DNA of 56,554 nucleotides from Thermodesulfobacteriota bacterium. Its GTDB lineage: Bacteria; Desulfobacterota; BSN033; UBA1163. The translations under genes were made by a program, and so were the position numbers. The stretch lies in assembly GCA_026415035.1 (NCBI GenBank), contig JAOAHX010000021.1, positions 1 through 56,554 of the forward strand. The letters are read 5' to 3'. The notes beneath the pieces are model-generated. The model had not been told where the DNA came from. It saw nothing but the letters and a program-made list of their open reading frames with translations, and made no database searches. Shown here piece by piece: positions 49,715 through 56,554 of this stretch (position 1 is the first letter of the stretch; every line of letters begins with the position of its first letter).

Positions 49715-51064
49715 CTAGGGGAGGTTTTTCCTCGCCTCTTTGATCCAAATCTTCAGCTTCGCCTTGCTGGGGATGGGTTGGCCTGGGAAATGGGTTTTTA
49801 ACCTATCATAGAGGCGATCCGCCTCCTCCGAGGCCAGGGAGGCGATGGAGCGAATCCCGATCTCTTCGAGGAGGCGGAGATTCTTCACTCCCAATCCCTT
49901 TAACAGGACGAGGGCCGACATCTCCCTCCAATGGTTCAATTCTTCCTTCGAAAGGAGGATCCTTAAGGCAAGCTCCTCCCTCTCTTCTTTGGTGCGGGTC
50001 TTCTTCAAAAGGTCCTCCAGCCTCGCAATCCCGACCCTTGGAAAATCCTCCCGCCATCTAAGATCGATCCAGTAGGCATCTTGGAGCCGGGTTTCAAACG
50101 AATCGACCGTCTTTCGGTCGATGGCGTCGAAGATAAGAAGTGAAAAGGAGGCGATGAGAAGGGAGGCGAGGGCAACGGTGAGGGGCCTCGTCTTCCTCTC
50201 GGGATTGAGGCAGTAGGTGGCCTCTTCCCAGCCTCTTCCGAAGCGGAAGAGGGAGATCGTATTATACATCCCATAGACCTGAACCGCGAAGGGTGGGAAG
50301 CCCAAAAAACCGAGGAGGGGCATCTCGAAACCCTTCAGATCCTCAAAATAGGGGACCGTGTAAACCCATTTCGCGTGGGCCCAGAAGTTCCAGAACTCCC
50401 AGAGGAGGCCGCAGATCAGGCCGGCCCAGAGAAGGAGGTAGATTTTCCTTGGATTTCCCCCTTCGATCTCCCTTAACAGAGACCTTCCCCCGAATCGGTA
50501 GAGGAGCGGCTCCAATAGAAAGATGAATCCCACCCAGATGAGGGGAAAACCGTATCGGGGAAAAACGATCGAGAAGACAAGGCAGAGGGCACCAAGGCCG
50601 ATCATGAAATTGAGCCTTTTCGGGGAAAAGGAAATCTTTTTCATGGAGGCGTGTTTGAACAGTCCCAGCGTCTCCAAAAGCTCGGTCGTTTCAAAGATTC
50701 CGGGAAGGACCGTTCCGTAGGCGACAAAATACCCGAGCCACCTTTCCATCCTCGAATGCGGGAGGTTGATGTAATACCAGTTTTCGAGGGAGAGGTTGGC
50801 CGCCTCGAAGATGAGCCACAGGAAGACCGACCAGGGGATCATGAGGAAAAATTCTTGTCTTCGGCTCATCAAGAGGGAGTTGCCCTTCAAACGGTAGATG
50901 AGGCCGTCGATGAAGAGGATGTAGGACCACCAGGCAAAACAGTAAAACCAACGATAAAAAGGCTCGACCTTCCTGAAATGGAGGACCTCGGAGACAACCA
51001 GTAGAAAAAATCCAAGGATGCCATGGATAGGGATCGTCTTTTTCATCCAAGGGAAATTTAGCAC
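49715..51064 (-). CDS. Unrecognised polytopic membrane protein with a C-terminal helix-hairpin-helix-like domain
   Basis: A 449-residue protein. Residues 1-310 hold about eight transmembrane segments with many Trp and Tyr residues (FYRWFYCFAWWSYILFIDGL; LLWEFWNFWAHAKW). After residue 325 the protein is soluble and helical; EMSALVLLKGLGVKNLRLLEEIGIRSIASL (about 382-411) looks like a helix-hairpin-helix of the DUF4332 kind. I do not recognise the N-terminal family. The start is GTG 51064 with GGAAGG upstream; an in-frame ATG lies six codons later. Function unknown. Confidence 0.75.
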   Translation of the reverse strand: MLNFPWMKKTIPIHGILGFFLLVVSEVLHFRKVEPFYRWFYCFAWWSYILFIDGLIYRLKGNSLLMSRRQEFFLMIPWSVFLWLIFEAANLSLENWYYINLPHSRMERWLGYFVAYGTVLPGIFETTELLETLGLFKHASMKKISFSPKRLNFMIGLGALCLVFSIVFPRYGFPLIWVGFIFLLEPLLYRFGGRSLLREIEGGNPRKIYLLLWAGLICGLLWEFWNFWAHAKWVYTVPYFEDLKGFEMPLLGFLGFPPFAVQVYGMYNTISLFRFGRGWEEATYCLNPERKTRPLTVALASLLIASFSLLIFDAIDRKTVDSFETRLQDAYWIDLRWREDFPRVGIARLEDLLKKTRTKEEREELALRILLSKEELNHWREMSALVLLKGLGVKNLRLLEEIGIRSIASLASEEADRLYDRLKTHFPGQPIPSKAKLKIWIKEARKNLP

Positions 51065-51396
51065 ATTCTCCTTCCGGGGACAATTGACCCAAATCCTGAT
51101 TTAAAAGGGTTTCATTGTCATTTTCATAGGCGAAAAGGGAATGCCTGGTCTGGGGAATCCTGCCTCGGAAGAGGCCTCGAGGCTTTGGTCGATTTCGGGA
51201 GGCATCTCCTGGCCAAAGGTTAGGGAACCGGCCTGTCCGAATTTAAGGAAATCGTCCTAAGTCTTGGCGATCTCGACGGGTTGTCCCAGGAGGAGGCAGG
51301 CATTTTAGGAGTTCTGGCGGGGTTGCGGAATCGGCCGATCCCTTTCTCTCATAAATGTTTTCTCCTTGTTGGGAGGGAGCTCCGTGAGCCCCGATC
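51065..51396. other. 332-bp intergenic region upstream of the membrane-protein gene
   Basis: No convincing gene or RNA is seen. A 62-codon open frame (51243-51431, minus) overlaps the end of livF, has no ribosome-binding site or family match, and is not called. A short hairpin GGAGCTC/GAGCCCC (51376-51392, loop CGT, one G-U pair) lies just after livF and could help end its message, but has no T-run. The region must hold the promoter of the membrane-protein gene; no clear -35/-10 pair was found. Confidence 0.5.
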
Positions 51397-52113
51397 CTAC
51401 CTGCCGAGATAGAGGTGTTTGACCTCTTCATTATTGAGAAGGCCTTCTCCCGTATCCTCTAACCGGTTCACGCCAAGATCGAGAACATAAGCTCGATGTG
51501 CCAAGCGAAGGGCCTTTCGAGCATTCTGTTCCACGATGAGGAGGGTGACTCCCTCCTGGTTGGTGACATAGATGTGATGATACATCTCGTCGATGACCTT
51601 GGGAGCCAGACCGATGGAGGGTTCATCCAAAAGGATCAGTTTGGGTTGGGTAAGGGAGGCACGGGCCATGGCGAGGACTTGTTTCTCGCCTCCGGAAAGG
51701 GACCCGGCTTTTATCTTCCTTCTCTTCTCCAGGACGGGGTAACGTTCCCAGATCTCCTGAACGGCCTTCCTGAGTAAAAACGAATCTTTTAAGAGAATCC
51801 CCCCCATCTCGAGATTTTCCATTACGGTCAGGGAAGGAAAGATGTTTTTCCCCTGAGGGATATAGGCCATGCCCAACTTTACTTTTTCTTCGGGTCCTTT
51901 ACGGGAGATTTCAGATCCGCAAAATTGGATGGAGCCTCGGGTCGGTTGGATGAGACCAAAGATGGTTTTAAGAAGGGTGGATTTTCCCGATCCATTTGGT
52001 CCAATAATACAGACGATCTCCTTGGAGGCCACGGAGAGGGAGACCCCGTGGAGGACTTCGATCCTCCCATATCCAGAATAAACCTCCCGGACTTCTAAAA
52101 AAGACTCTGCCAT
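51397..52113 (-). CDS. livF: Branched-chain amino acid-type ABC importer ATPase LivF
   Basis: A 238-residue ABC ATPase of LivF size: Walker A GPNGSGKSTLL (about 38), signature LSGGEKQVLAMARA (about 138), Walker B LILLDEPSIGLAPK (about 158) and the LivF tail (YVLDLGVNRLEDTGEGLLNNEEVKHLYLGR region). ATG 52113 is taken rather than an in-frame TTG at 52167 that has no ribosome-binding site. It is the last gene of the operon, 103 bases after livG. Confidence 0.94.
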   Translation of the reverse strand: MAESFLEVREVYSGYGRIEVLHGVSLSVASKEIVCIIGPNGSGKSTLLKTIFGLIQPTRGSIQFCGSEISRKGPEEKVKLGMAYIPQGKNIFPSLTVMENLEMGGILLKDSFLLRKAVQEIWERYPVLEKRRKIKAGSLSGGEKQVLAMARASLTQPKLILLDEPSIGLAPKVIDEMYHHIYVTNQEGVTLLIVEQNARKALRLAHRAYVLDLGVNRLEDTGEGLLNNEEVKHLYLGR

Positions 52114-52216
52114 GGTCTCTCTATTCGGGATCAGGGATGAAAGGGTCCTGACCTTCCACAGAAGCAATCGGTTTTCCCTTAACCCCCGAGTGCTGGATAC
52201 CTTTAATCCTCGTCAT

Positions 52217-52966
52217 TCACACGCCCAGATAGGCTTCGATCACCCTGGGGTTTTGTTGAATTTCTTTGGGTTTTCCTTCCGCAATCTTTCTGCCGTTATC
52301 CAGAACAAAAACCCATTCACAGAGCTCGATGACCACATCCATATTGTGCTCAATGATAAAGAAGGCCACCCCCCATTCCTTCATCTTGAGGATCAACTCC
52401 AGGATCGTCCGGATCATCATCGGGTTGATCCCAGCAGTGGGTTCGTCAAGAAGGATCATCTTGGGGTTGGCCATCAAGGCCCTCGCCAGCTCCAATAGTT
52501 TTTGTTGTCCGTAGGAAAGATTTCCAGCCCATTGATCTTTCAGATGGGAAAGCCCCACCCACTCGATCAACTCTAAGGCCCTTTTGCGATGGGCCTTCTC
52601 TTCTTCCTGGATGGCCTTCGATTTGAGAAAGAGGGAGCGAAGGGTTTCCCCCGTCTGTCGGGGGCAGGCGATGAGCATATTGTCCAGAACCGTCATTTTG
52701 GCCAGGACACGGGTCATCTGGAACGTTCGGACCATTCCCGCCGAGGCGACCTCGTGAGGGAGACGACCGTCGATCCGTTTCCCCTTAAAATAGATCTCCC
52801 CGGAATCCGGCAGAAGAAATCCCGTGATAAGATTGAATAGGGTCGTTTTTCCGGACCCGTTGGGACCGATGAGACCCGTGATGGCATGTCCGTTCAGGGA
52901 GAAGGTACAATCCGACACCGCTTGGACCCCTCCAAACGACTTGCTCAGACCTTTGGTCTCGATCAT
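52217..52966 (-). CDS. livG: Branched-chain amino acid-type ABC importer ATPase LivG
   Basis: A 249-residue ABC ATPase: Walker A GPNGSGKTTLFNLI (about 35-48), LivG insertion after VRTFQMTRVLAKMTV, signature LSYGQQKLLELARAL (about 147), Walker B MILLDEPTAGINPMM, C-terminal NPRVIEAYLG motif. ATG 52966 has GGGAGGGGG before it and overlaps the livM stop (ATGA); an upstream in-frame start would lie inside livM. Confidence 0.95.
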   Translation of the reverse strand: MIETKGLSKSFGGVQAVSDCTFSLNGHAITGLIGPNGSGKTTLFNLITGFLLPDSGEIYFKGKRIDGRLPHEVASAGMVRTFQMTRVLAKMTVLDNMLIACPRQTGETLRSLFLKSKAIQEEEKAHRKRALELIEWVGLSHLKDQWAGNLSYGQQKLLELARALMANPKMILLDEPTAGINPMMIRTILELILKMKEWGVAFFIIEHNMDVVIELCEWVFVLDNGRKIAEGKPKEIQQNPRVIEAYLGV

Positions 52967-53841
52967 CTTCCCCCTCCCTTTTCTCGGATCAGGCCTTCGG
53001 GACGATAGACCATTAAAAAGATGAGAAGGGCCCCGAAGATCATCTGTTGCAGAGGAGCCAGATAACGCCCCCATTCGGCAGGGAGTTTAAGAAATCTCAA
53101 GGATTCTTGGAAGAAAATTAAGACAAAGGCTCCCACCAAAGGTCCCCATTCCGTTCCTTTCCCTCCCAGAACCACGATGAGCAGAACGAGGATGGTTTCA
53201 GAAAGCGTAAAGTCACCCGGACTGATGAAGGTGGTATAGTGGGCCCAAAGGACTCCTGCCAGCCCTGCGAAGACCGACCCGATCAGGACCGATTTGATCT
53301 TGAAATGGAACGTATTCTTCCCCAGAGCCATCAGGGCGATCTCATCTTCTCGTATTCCCCTGAAGGTGCGCCCCAGGGGACTCCGGATGACCCTTCTGAG
53401 GATGAGAAAGGTGAGGAGGGTTAGCCCGAAGGTCAATAAAAGATACTGGGGGAGCGTCCCAAACCGGTAGGAGAAAAGGACAGGTTTGGGAATGCCCGGG
53501 AGCCCCATCGGCCCTTTGGTCAACCAGACTTCGTTTTGAGAGACCATTCGAATGATCTCACCAAAGCCCAGGGTGGCGATTCCAAAATAATCGCCACGAA
53601 GCCTGAGGCTGGGAATGCTGAGGAGAAAACCGCAAAGGCCCGAAGCCGCTAACGCCACCCAAAAGGCCAGAGCAAAAGGAAAGTGATGGAGGGTGAGCAG
53701 GGCAGACGTATAAGCTCCGATCCCGAAGAAAGCGATGTGACCAAAATTAAAGAGACCGGTATAACCCATCTGGAGGTTGAGGCTCATGGCAAAGATAGAA
53801 TAGATGAAAATCATGATCCAGAGATGGAGGAGGAGGTCCAT
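52963..53841 (-). CDS. livM: Branched-chain amino acid-type ABC importer permease LivM
   Basis: A 292-residue permease with about eight transmembrane segments and family motifs GYTGLFNFGHIAFFGIGAYTSA (about 30-51) and LRGDYFGIATLGFGEIIR (about 92-109); the cytoplasmic coupling loop is GRTFRGIREDEIALMALGKN. ATG 53841 has AAGGAA just upstream and lies 7 bases after the livH stop. It forms the membrane channel with LivH. Confidence 0.94.
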   Translation of the reverse strand: MDLLLHLWIMIFIYSIFAMSLNLQMGYTGLFNFGHIAFFGIGAYTSALLTLHHFPFALAFWVALAASGLCGFLLSIPSLRLRGDYFGIATLGFGEIIRMVSQNEVWLTKGPMGLPGIPKPVLFSYRFGTLPQYLLLTFGLTLLTFLILRRVIRSPLGRTFRGIREDEIALMALGKNTFHFKIKSVLIGSVFAGLAGVLWAHYTTFISPGDFTLSETILVLLIVVLGGKGTEWGPLVGAFVLIFFQESLRFLKLPAEWGRYLAPLQQMIFGALLIFLMVYRPEGLIREKGGGR

Positions 53842-53848
53842 CGCTTCC

Positions 53849-54712
53849 TTATTCCTGGTCCACCCCAAGGGTAGACGGTTTTAAAAGGAGGAGGAGCACC
53901 ATGATCCCAAAAGCGATCGAATCTTTGTATCCCGTCGAGATAAACAGTACCCCAAGATTCTCCGCCAACCCAATGAAAATCCCCCCCCAGAGAGCTCCCC
54001 ATACCTTCCCGACCCCTCCAAGAAGGATGGCCGCAAAGGCTTTGACCAGGTTGATCATCCCCATTCCCGGCTGGAGGTTCGTGTCGAGGGCCAGCAGAAT
54101 GCCCCCCACGCAAGCGAGGGCCGAAGAAATGATCCAGGTGAATTGGATGGTCTTTTTCACGTCGATTCCCGTCACCCGGGCTAATTCGAGATTGTCCGAG
54201 ACGGCCCGCATCGATTTTCCGATTTTCGACCGATAAAGCAGGAGATAGACCATCAGGATGCAAGCCAAGGTGGTGAGGATGATCGCCATTTGGTTCGCGG
54301 TGATGCGGATGTGAAAGATCTTCCACCCTCGTTGGATTTCGAACCCGTAGGTCCGGAGTTCGGCTCCCCAAAAGAGTTGAGCCCCGTTCCGGAGAAAAAA
54401 CGAGAGGCCCAGGGCCGCGATGAGGAGGGTGAGGCGATTGGCCTGGCGGAGGGGTTGAAACGCAACCCGGTCCATCCCCAAACCGAGCAACATCGTGGAG
54501 CCAAGCGCAGGGAGGAGAGCCACATACAGGGGAAAGTAAAAGGGGCTGCCCATGAATAAGTAAAGGAAATAGGCGCCCCACATGATCAATTCTCCATGGG
54601 CGAAGTTGACAAAGTTCAGAACCCGATACACCATGGTGAGTCCCATGGCAAACAGGGCATAGATACAACCCGCCAATAAGCCGTTAAAGAGGGATTGGAA
54701 AAGATAGGACAT
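53849..54712 (-). CDS. livH: Branched-chain amino acid-type ABC importer permease LivH
   Basis: A 287-residue permease with about eight transmembrane helices and family motifs GLLAGCIYALFAMGLTMVYRVLNFVNFAHGE (first 42 residues) and GKSMRAVSDNLELARVTGI (coupling loop). ATG 54712 has no purine-rich ribosome-binding site: the bases before it are the T-run of a terminator hairpin, so its translation may be weak or depend on read-through. Confidence 0.94.
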   Translation of the reverse strand: MSYLFQSLFNGLLAGCIYALFAMGLTMVYRVLNFVNFAHGELIMWGAYFLYLFMGSPFYFPLYVALLPALGSTMLLGLGMDRVAFQPLRQANRLTLLIAALGLSFFLRNGAQLFWGAELRTYGFEIQRGWKIFHIRITANQMAIILTTLACILMVYLLLYRSKIGKSMRAVSDNLELARVTGIDVKKTIQFTWIISSALACVGGILLALDTNLQPGMGMINLVKAFAAILLGGVGKVWGALWGGIFIGLAENLGVLFISTGYKDSIAFGIMVLLLLLKPSTLGVDQE

Positions 54713-54715
54713 TTC

Positions 54716-54756
54716 AAAAAATTAGGTTCTGAAGAAGAGATCTCTTCAGAACCTAA
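54716..54756 (-). terminator. Intrinsic terminator between livJ and livH
   Basis: On the transcript TTAGGTTCTGAAGA (54756-54743 reading minus) pairs with TCTTCAGAACCTAA (54735-54722) in a perfect 14-bp stem with a 7-base loop, followed at once by six T (54721-54716). The T-run ends 3 bases before the livH start codon. It lies 27 bases after the livJ stop. Partial termination here would make the binding protein more abundant than the membrane subunits. Confidence 0.85.
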
Positions 54757-54783
54757 CTCCCTTCAATTCCGAGGGGAATCCCC

Positions 54784-55899
54784 TTATTTTTTATAATCGA
54801 TAATCTGCCCGTCCTTAATGGTCCAGACGCCATATTCACTGCCAACGCCTCGGTCTTGATCGAAGGTTTTGTCCCCTGTGACTCCTCGATATCCCCTGGC
54901 CACCTCAAAGAGGGCCTTTCGGATCCCATCAGAGGTATACCCTCCTCTTTCGATGGCTTTGGCGATGAGATGGACCATATCGTAGTTATATTCCGCGAAG
55001 ATGGGAATCTTAGCGTCTCCATATTTCTTTGTCCAGAGAGACCGGAAAGCTTGATACTCCTTGGTCTCCTGAGAAAACACAGGATAAGTGCCGATAATCC
55101 CTTCCACCGCTTTCCCCGCCAATTCCACTAATTTTGGGGCTTTTGCCGCCGAGCCGACGATCCATTGGGTTTGTATGCCCATTTCGTAGGCCTGTTTGAA
55201 CATGACCGACCCTTCGACGATATAGGTGAGATTGACGACCGCCTTCGGATTTCCCTTGGTCGCCCGGAGCAGTTCGGTCCGGTAATCGGTTTTCTTCTCT
55301 TCGTAAGGAATTTCGTCTAACACCTTTCCACCCGCCTTTTTGAAGTTTTCTACAAAAACATTCTTGAGGCCAAGTCCCCAATCGTTGTTCACATACATGA
55401 TAGGGACTTCCATAAATTTCAACTGGAGGCAAAGGTCCGAAATTCCTTTCCCCTGCAAGACATCGGAGGGGAAGACCCTGAAGATATACTCTCCGGCTTT
55501 AGTCAGGCCGGGGGCGGCTCCCTGGGCCGAGATCATGACGACCTTACTTTCTTGGGCGACGGGCGCAGCGGCCATGAAATTGGAGCTTGCAGCCGGCCCG
55601 ATGATCACGGGCACTTTATCGACGGTGATCAGCTTTCGAACGGCATTGACACAATCCTTGGGAGTGCTTTTGTTATCTTCATAGATGATTTCGAGTTTCT
55701 TTCCTTTAATTCCGCCTTTGCCATTGATTTCCTCGGTGGCCAGATCGATCGCTTTTTTGAATCCTTCTCCATAAACGGCGATGCTTCCTGAAAGGGCAAT
55801 GGCTGCCCCGACTTTGTAGGTCTCCTGGGAATTTACGACGGGGGCAAAAATGAGTGAGAAGCCAGAGAAGATGAAAAATAAGTAACGGATTTTCCTCAT
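54784..55899 (-). CDS. livJ: Branched-chain amino acid-type ABC importer substrate-binding protein (LivJ/K family)
   Basis: A 371-residue periplasmic binding protein with a signal peptide (about 1-24, cleavage near NSQ) and the type I fold motifs VGAAIALSGSIAVYGEGFKKAIDLATEEINGKGG (spread over about 30-63), VPVIIGPAASSNFMAAAPVAQ and YVNNDWGLGLKNVF. The family binds branched-chain amino acids, amides, urea or aromatic acids; the ligand is not readable. ATG 55899 has GGAGG 6 bases upstream; an in-frame upstream extension to 56127 crosses the promoter region and is rejected. Confidence 0.94.
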   Translation of the reverse strand: MRKIRYLFFIFSGFSLIFAPVVNSQETYKVGAAIALSGSIAVYGEGFKKAIDLATEEINGKGGIKGKKLEIIYEDNKSTPKDCVNAVRKLITVDKVPVIIGPAASSNFMAAAPVAQESKVVMISAQGAAPGLTKAGEYIFRVFPSDVLQGKGISDLCLQLKFMEVPIMYVNNDWGLGLKNVFVENFKKAGGKVLDEIPYEEKKTDYRTELLRATKGNPKAVVNLTYIVEGSVMFKQAYEMGIQTQWIVGSAAKAPKLVELAGKAVEGIIGTYPVFSQETKEYQAFRSLWTKKYGDAKIPIFAEYNYDMVHLIAKAIERGGYTSDGIRKALFEVARGYRGVTGDKTFDQDRGVGSEYGVWTIKDGQIIDYKK

Positions 55900-55918
55900 G
55901 GTCAGCCTCCTTCGATAG

Positions 55919-55958
55919 ATTATAGGGTATTTTTTTAAGATGAGAGACGATGTGTCAA
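55919..55958 (-). promoter_or_regulatory. Promoter region of the liv operon
   Basis: A perfect -10, TATAAT, lies at 55919-55924 (minus strand), 20 bases before the livJ start. A perfect -35 hexamer TTGACA is at 55953-55958 but the spacing is 28 bases, too long for the two to be one promoter. The -10 may be used with a poor -35, or with an activator. Confidence 0.45.
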
Positions 55959-55975
55959 TAGCCAGGGGTTGGGTT

Positions 55976-56004
55976 TTGACCCAGCCATTTTTTTCATTTA
56001 TGAT
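55976..56004 (+). promoter_or_regulatory. Sigma-70-type promoter of the gamma-glutamyltransferase gene
   Basis: TTGACC (55976-55981), a 17-base spacer, and TATGAT (55999-56004) make a near-consensus promoter on the plus strand, about 25 bases before the GAGGAGGG ribosome-binding site of the next gene. It is divergent from the liv promoter. Confidence 0.75.
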
Positions 56005-56034
56005 GGCTTTAATCCAGAAAGAGGAGGGCTGATC

Positions 56035-56554
56035 TTGCGTTTCACTTACACACAGAAGCGGGAATGGAAGAATTCGGCACAACGCTCTGTGGCAATGGGT
56101 ACACAGGGGATGGTTGCGGCCAGTCAACCTCTGGCGACCCTTTCGGGGTATAAGATCCTGGCAAAAGGAGGCAACGCCATTGATGCGGCTGTTGCCATGG
56201 TCAGCACCCTGAGTGTGGTTGAGCCTTATAATGTGGGAATAGGAGGCGATGCCTTTGCCCTGATTTATCTGGCAAAAGAGAAGCGTTTAATCGGAATGAA
56301 TGCGAGCGGTCGAGCTCCTTATGGAGCAAGGCTCGAGTGGTTTCATCAGCAAGGGATGAAGGAGATGCCCGAAAGAGGAATATTATCCGTCACTGTCCCA
56401 GGAGCGCTTCATGGATGGAATCAGGCTTTGGAACGATACGGAACCATGAGACTTTCAGACGTTCTGCAGGATGCGATTCAATATGCTGAATATGGATTTC
56501 CTGTTACAGAAGTGATTTCCGGGGAATGGAAGGAGGCAGAAGAAATTCTAAGAT
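56035..56554 (+). CDS. Gamma-glutamyltransferase family protein, N-terminal part (cut by window end)
   Basis: An open frame from TTG 56035, with GAGGAGGG 6 bases upstream, runs off the right edge (173 codons seen). It shows the GGT N-terminal motifs MVAASQPLAT, GGNAIDAAVAM, NVGIGGDAFALIY (usual GIGGGGF position), GRAPYGA and SVTVPGALHGW. The family is made as a precursor that cleaves itself before a catalytic Thr, which lies beyond the window. The motif IGGDAFAL rather than the bacterial GGT GGGGFML suggests the YwrD/cephalosporin-acylase-like branch. No signal peptide is visible, so the protein is probably cytoplasmic. Confidence 0.88.
   Translation, partial: MRFTYTQKREWKNSAQRSVAMGTQGMVAASQPLATLSGYKILAKGGNAIDAAVAMVSTLSVVEPYNVGIGGDAFALIYLAKEKRLIGMNASGRAPYGARLEWFHQQGMKEMPERGILSVTVPGALHGWNQALERYGTMRLSDVLQDAIQYAEYGFPVTEVISGEWKEAEEILR

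Follow-up and report, generated by a model that had tools for sequence, protein, structure and literature searches.

The window, the whole stretch of 56,554 nucleotides analysed here, carries five genes in the order livJHMGF, all on the minus strand. The features on which the argument turns, all minus strand, are:

55929..55958, minus strand: sigma-70-like promoter before livJ, TTGACA with a weak -10, either TAAAAA (spacing 15) or AAAAAT (spacing 18)
54784..55899, minus strand: livJ, the operon's first gene, encoding a livJ-type substrate-binding protein (SBP) of 371 aa
54757..54783, minus strand: spacer of 27 nt from the livJ stop to the hairpin, with GGGAG directly 5' of the stem
54722..54756, minus strand: putative terminator hairpin, perfect 14-bp stem and 7-nt loop, with covariation over 14 sequences
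54716..54721, minus strand: T6 run (U-tract), the predicted RNA 3' end
53849..54712, minus strand: livH permease, 287 aa (Pfam PF02653, E 2e-38)
52963..53844, minus strand: livM permease (PF02653, E 1.2e-49)
52217..52966, minus strand: livG ATPase (PF00005 and PF12399)
51397..52113, minus strand: livF ATPase (PF00005)

The livJ product matches Pfam PF13458 (E 2.7e-55); among NCBIfam models it comes closest to one for a branched-chain amino acid SBP, scoring below that model's cut-off. UrtE and LivF are the best NCBIfam matches of the livF product, each likewise below its cut-off. At 49715-51064, also on the minus strand, lies a gene with a C-terminal DUF4332 domain and, by eye, hydrophobic stretches.

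The livJ-livH junction is compact. The livJ stop codon, TAA at 54786-54784, is followed after the spacer by the 5' arm of the stem (54756-54743), the loop (54742-54736), and the 3' arm (54735-54722), with 14 of 14 positions paired. After the stem, the sense strand reads T6, GAA, and the livH ATG (54712-54710), so that only 3 nt separate the end of the T-run from the livH start. The preliminary description of this DNA was right that a perfect 14-bp stem and six T lie between the two genes. On the sense strand of livJ, a stable hairpin is followed directly by a U-tract, which is the sequence signature of an intrinsic terminator.

Such a structure is hardly expected by chance. Perfect stems with a T tail were sought on both strands of the window and in 100 dinucleotide shuffles. 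The window has a single perfect 14-bp stem whose next 7 nt include at least 6 T, and the 100 shuffles have none; stems of 12 bp with at least 5 T also number 0 in the 100 shuffles, and those of 10 bp with at least 5 T give 5 matches summed over all 100. No perfect stem other than the livJ-livH hairpin reaches 10 bp with at least 5 T anywhere in the 56.5 kb; the window's strongest candidate of this type is thus located within an operon. The fold of a 151-nt region around it (plus strand folded) has z = -4.1. A simple terminator scanner did not include the site in its minus-strand output, likely because G-U pairs let the stem extend into T6, as they do in the predicted fold; both the perfect-stem scan and the scan of relatives find it.

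The preliminary description had proposed asking whether relatives keep the stem. A collection scan, made with peptide patterns of the window's own protein and so favouring close relatives, found 19 loci: 17 LivH orthologues (L058-L074; 64-88% identity) and two distant Sphaerochaeta loci (L075, L076), which were excluded from the counts. (L029-L034 are the same contigs as L058-L063 and were counted once.) These relatives come from metagenome assemblies carrying the labels Deltaproteobacteria, Syntrophaceae, Syntrophales, Syntrophobacterales, or uncultured bacterium. In all 17 orthologous loci livH is preceded by a LivJ relative (65-93% identity), and a U-tailed hairpin occupies the junction in 13 of them (L058-L065, L070-L074), a count that excludes weak hairpins such as that of L067 (-9.3 kcal/mol). 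The stem is thereby kept in most of these relatives, with covariation, and is retained down to about 66% LivH identity.

Position is kept as well as structure. Between the end of the T-run and the livH start lie 3 nt in 8 of the 13 loci, 6 nt in L063, 7 nt in L061 and L062, 9 nt in L065, and 66 nt in L060, a distance of 3-9 nt in 12 of 13. (For L063, L064, and L070-L074, the start was taken as an in-frame ATG 3 or 9 nt before the aligned codon 1.) The spacer from livJ stop to hairpin, measured from a stem base set by hand, is 22-30 nt in 13 of 14 hairpin sequences including the window, and 82 nt in L065; its sequence differs among relatives despite the kept length. The hairpin is absent from L066-L069 among the 17 orthologous loci and from the more distant L035, and so is not essential. 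In a LivH tree, from which the partial L074 was left out, L066-L069 form one clade (support 100/99) and L035 sits on a long branch; as judged from this tree, two changes are needed, a loss in L066-L069 and a change between L035 and the rest. In a more distant set of 21 livH loci (L037-L057), taken whatever gene precedes them, L042 and L054 show clear hairpins followed by 6-7 T, 35 and 46 nt before the livH start, respectively. Several of the others have only weak or distant hairpin matches.

Hairpins with T-runs occur elsewhere near livJ. On the plus strand, an 8-bp hairpin with T7 (55967-55994) lies between livJ and a divergent gamma-glutamyltranspeptidase gene (PF01019), upstream of the start of the latter, where a leader terminator is possible; as far as inspection by eye shows, L058 and L059 do not retain the stem of this hairpin. 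A small plus-strand hairpin with a T-run at 54771-54785 was taken as chance; its T-run consists of livJ coding bases and its stem, again by eye, is not kept in L058.

Compensatory change argues that the junction stem acts as RNA. The alignment comprised the window and the 13 hairpin loci, which are related and not independent sequences, and was compared with 500 shuffles. In the 14-pair stem, 92.3% of cells hold standard pairs, a share that falls to 33-55% when the partner is slid by 1-3 columns. Cells changed on both sides number 33, against 11.6 in shuffles (0 of 500 reach 33), and the covariation score is 0.480, against 0.210 in shuffles (0 of 500) and 0.05-0.16 in slid controls. Two of the five conservation measures are weak: the 7 pairs with changes on both sides are mildly above expectation (39 of 500 shuffles as high), and further pair types are not above the shuffles (208 of 500 as high). 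Taken together, the alignment indicates that this is an RNA structure kept by evolution. As an observation in its own right, the core GGTTC/GAACC (within 54725-54753) is near-fixed while adjacent pairs change by compensation.

Promoter-like sites were sought before livJ and before livH. In a consensus scan, 16 of 18 loci have, upstream of livJ, a sigma-70-like site with 10 or 11 of 12 consensus bases, mostly at 58-64 nt from the livJ start; for each of the 16, 0 or 1 of 50 shuffles matches it. (Shuffles for the promoter scans, and for the SBP junctions considered below, were mononucleotide.) The exceptions are L065, which scores 9, and L062, where the sequence is a run of N. The site reads TTGACA-15-TATARR in 15 relatives and TTGACA-15-TAAAAA in the window; its short 15-nt spacing is itself kept among relatives. 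In the 300 nt before livH, the same sigma-70 consensus scan finds a promoter-like site above shuffles in 0 of 18 loci. Since a candidate promoter precedes livJ and nothing above chance precedes livH, expression of livHMGF most likely relies on readthrough.

These features suggest a leaky internal intrinsic terminator of the livJHMGF operon, setting LivJ well above LivHMGF; this is the best explanation, and very probably the right one. Transcription would start before livJ, and the nascent RNA would fold the 14-bp hairpin at the end of livJ while polymerase pauses in T6. The majority of polymerases would release there, leaving a short livJ message with the hairpin protecting its 3' end, and the minority reading through would go on to livHMGF. 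The outcome would be a periplasmic binding protein in large excess over its translocator. In an E. coli reporter, as described in PMC4824070, termination is repressed by a ribosome near the stop codon and is maximal beyond 27 nt, which places the window's 27-nt spacer at the limit; the hairpin would be about clear of the ribosome finishing livJ. From anatomy, conservation, covariation, and the placement of promoter-like sites, we infer termination, its efficiency, protection of the 3' end, and the resulting protein ratio. The earlier proposal that a predicted terminator here sets binding protein above permease is thus favoured by conservation and promoter placement, and by the precedent of PMC9045158, to which we return.

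The closeness of the U-tract to the livH start raises a further question: do the hairpin and its U-tract also affect how livH is translated from the readthrough message, as a brake or as an open landing site lacking a Shine-Dalgarno (SD) sequence? The livH leader has an SD energy of +0.2 kcal/mol, with nothing SD-like in the usual place; of 41 window ORFs, 71% pair at -4 or stronger, compared with 34% of random 15-mers, the ORFs for this and the following comparison having been picked by length and first ATG, so that some are probably not genes. Opening the livH region from -18 to +13 would cost 20.0 kcal/mol, rank 2 of 40 ORFs (median 11.5), whereas opening only -9 to +13, downstream of the hairpin, would cost 4.6 kcal/mol. 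Whether the hairpin would act as a translation brake therefore depends on which of these costs the ribosome pays.

A role in translation added to termination is a tentative proposal, possible at best. It draws on these opening costs, on the T-run lying 3-9 nt from the start in nearly all hairpin loci, and on the lack of a clear SD before livH in all 17 relatives (strongest -3.5, in L059). Those 17 include the four without a hairpin, however, so the absence of an SD is independent of the T-run, and livH in L066-L069 is presumably translated with neither SD nor hairpin. Moreover, L060 keeps the hairpin with a T-run that ends far from the start; the -18 to +13 costs, 10.5-20.6 where a hairpin is near (12 loci) and 8.4-14.4 where there is none (4 loci), overlap; and the tight packing could be mere compactness. 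The statement in the preliminary description that the T-run takes the place of a livH ribosome-binding site accordingly stands in one half: no SD is there, but the relatives speak against the idea that the T-run displaced it. More doubtful is the proposal that a single element of about 45 nt both terminates most livJ transcripts and, through its open U-tract, provides the SD-less ribosome landing site of livH. If it did, the transcript and translation ratios of binding protein and permease would be tied to one sequence.

The preliminary description had also suggested control linked to readthrough through the overlap of T-run and translation start. At the moment when RNA polymerase either stops or continues in the T-run, the livH start is still to be transcribed or lies within the enzyme. 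Initiation at livH consequently cannot influence termination, feedback of this kind is unlikely, and the suggestion falls; the overlap could affect only translation of the readthrough message.

A hairpin after an SBP gene might instead serve as a 3'-end stabiliser or processing barrier, protecting livJ mRNA after endonuclease cleavage while transcription continues. Here the other SBP junctions of the genome are informative. The genome has 19 SBP matches (L026 and L027 share one frame), giving 18 loci and, once L025 and L026 were dropped for want of a recognised neighbouring permease gene, 16 junctions. Nine of these have a spacer of at least 45 nt, and 8 of the 9, livJ-livH included, carry a hairpin at least as strong as -18 kcal/mol that outdoes every one of 30 shuffles of its spacer; L023 is the roomy junction lacking such a strong hairpin. 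None of 14 other gaps in the window, hand-picked as controls and two of them convergent, reaches -18 kcal/mol (best -16.9). Of the 7 junctions with shorter spacers, 4 are too short for the test and 3 lack a strong spacer hairpin; at L012, one of the short ones, a strong hairpin lies just beyond the chosen start. Strong hairpins after SBP genes therefore look like a habit of this genome. The number of T in the next 8 nt is 5-6 at L009, L020, and L021 and 2-4 at L010, L014, L017, and L018. The hairpins at these seven junctions are very stable and mostly without a clear T-run, and may be stabilisers or weak terminators.

That resemblance is what recommends stabilisation for livJ too. The livJ-livH hairpin, though, has the cleanest T-run among the strong SBP-junction hairpins, and the T-run is retained with the stem in 13 loci; a stabiliser needs no T-run, and stabilisation without termination is an unlikely reading of this junction.

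Less probable still is that the hairpin brings a distant SD to livH, the GGGAG before the stem coming to lie 9 nt from the ATG once the hairpin folds. In the window the pre-stem stretch pairs with the anti-SD at -7.2 kcal/mol, and in L058 at -10.7, at that 9-nt distance after collapse, and phage T4 genes 38 and 25 offer a precedent (PMC3014915). Yet pairing of -7 kcal/mol or stronger occurs in only 3 of 13 sequences (window, L058, L072; L060, with its hairpin far from the start, was excluded), and in the predicted fold AGGGAG pairs with the U-tract.

Equally improbable is a complete terminator with a separate promoter within livJ driving livHMGF. So strong a signal (14 bp, U6) might let almost no polymerase through, in which case a livH promoter invisible to the sigma-70 scan would be needed. 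A promoter-like site matching 9 of 12 consensus bases does exist (55035-55007, minus strand), but sites of this kind number 6 where 4.0 are expected (sd 2.0), which is close to chance; L058 alone has close matches to its hexamers (compared at a fixed offset, with indel rows unsure); and the scan of 18 loci described above speaks against it.

A conditional attenuator, with an alternative antiterminator or a ligand-sensing fold, is very unlikely: the spacer, 22-30 nt in all but one sequence and variable in its bases, leaves little room, and neither a conserved sensing domain nor an alternative fold was found upstream of the terminator. Rfam, searched with 51000-56554, gave no family there and one sub-threshold match located elsewhere.

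Least credible of all, a DNA operator or dispersed repeat could account for the nearly invariant five pairs GGTTC/GAACC, but half-site distance varies (18-20 nt in 13 of 14 sequences, 14 in L063), flanking stem bases change in compensation as expected of RNA pairing, and the exact motif GGTTCYG...CRGAACC occurs at one place in the window's genome, while five of the order's 17 genomes each have a single copy with a T-run (reversed control 0), in all five cases directly before a livH match. (The pattern is strict and misses, for example, the G009 hairpin, on the same contig as L059, which has GGACC.) A repeat was rejected on the single genomic place and on a single-arm search with 2 mismatches, whose 22 matches against 19 in the reversed control are chance.

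The leaky internal terminator thus remains the preferred reading, and it has a close counterpart. Wu et al. (2022; PMC9045158) describe stem-loops downstream of SBP genes in the ABC-importer operons of cellulolytic Clostridia, with termination of 20.7-96.1% by Northern blot in a two-gene reporter (the two poly(U) types tested exceeded 90%), and predict stem-loops after at least 15 E. coli SBP genes. Their Type I terminators, as described there, share with the liv element a stem-loop between the leading SBP gene and the translocator genes, with a poly(U) tail; common to both are a single hairpin without an antiterminator and, for the liv element presumably, the purpose of SBP excess. The liv element differs in phylum (Syntrophaceae belong to the Thermodesulfobacteriota), in importer family, and in how near its U-tract comes to the permease start (3-9 nt in 12 of 13 loci). 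The main text of PMC9045158 contains none of the terms 'start codon', 'ribosome binding site', and 'branched-chain'. Among the titles and abstract openings surveyed, no description of a terminator abutting a livH start was found, which is no proof of absence in print.

Two other systems bear on the start itself. In T4, hairpins shorten the SD-AUG distance from 22 to 5 nt and from 27 to 11 nt (PMC3014915). A hairpin between an SD-like stretch and the AUG is likewise present in the window and L058; according to the same source for T4, the liv arrangement differs in that its SD-like stretch is not conserved, its hairpin is followed by a T-run, and the distance shortened is longer. SD-less initiation through locally unstructured RNA, as reported in PMC3121790, resembles the U-rich, open livH start without an SD, which differs in having a very stable hairpin directly upstream.

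The mechanism is thus already known, and the liv element appears to display those of its features that are visible in sequence, which do not include termination or the transcript ratio. The unusual part, as seen across the aligned loci, is the conserved packing of a putative terminator against an SD-less permease start. With comparative RNA evidence, the range of the stoichiometry mechanism shown in Clostridia would come to include uncultured deltaproteobacterial genomes (Syntrophaceae-labelled). In the window's genome, most of the roomy SBP junctions examined carry strong hairpins. Moreover, the packing of terminator against start provides a testable case in which one element may affect both transcript and translation ratios.
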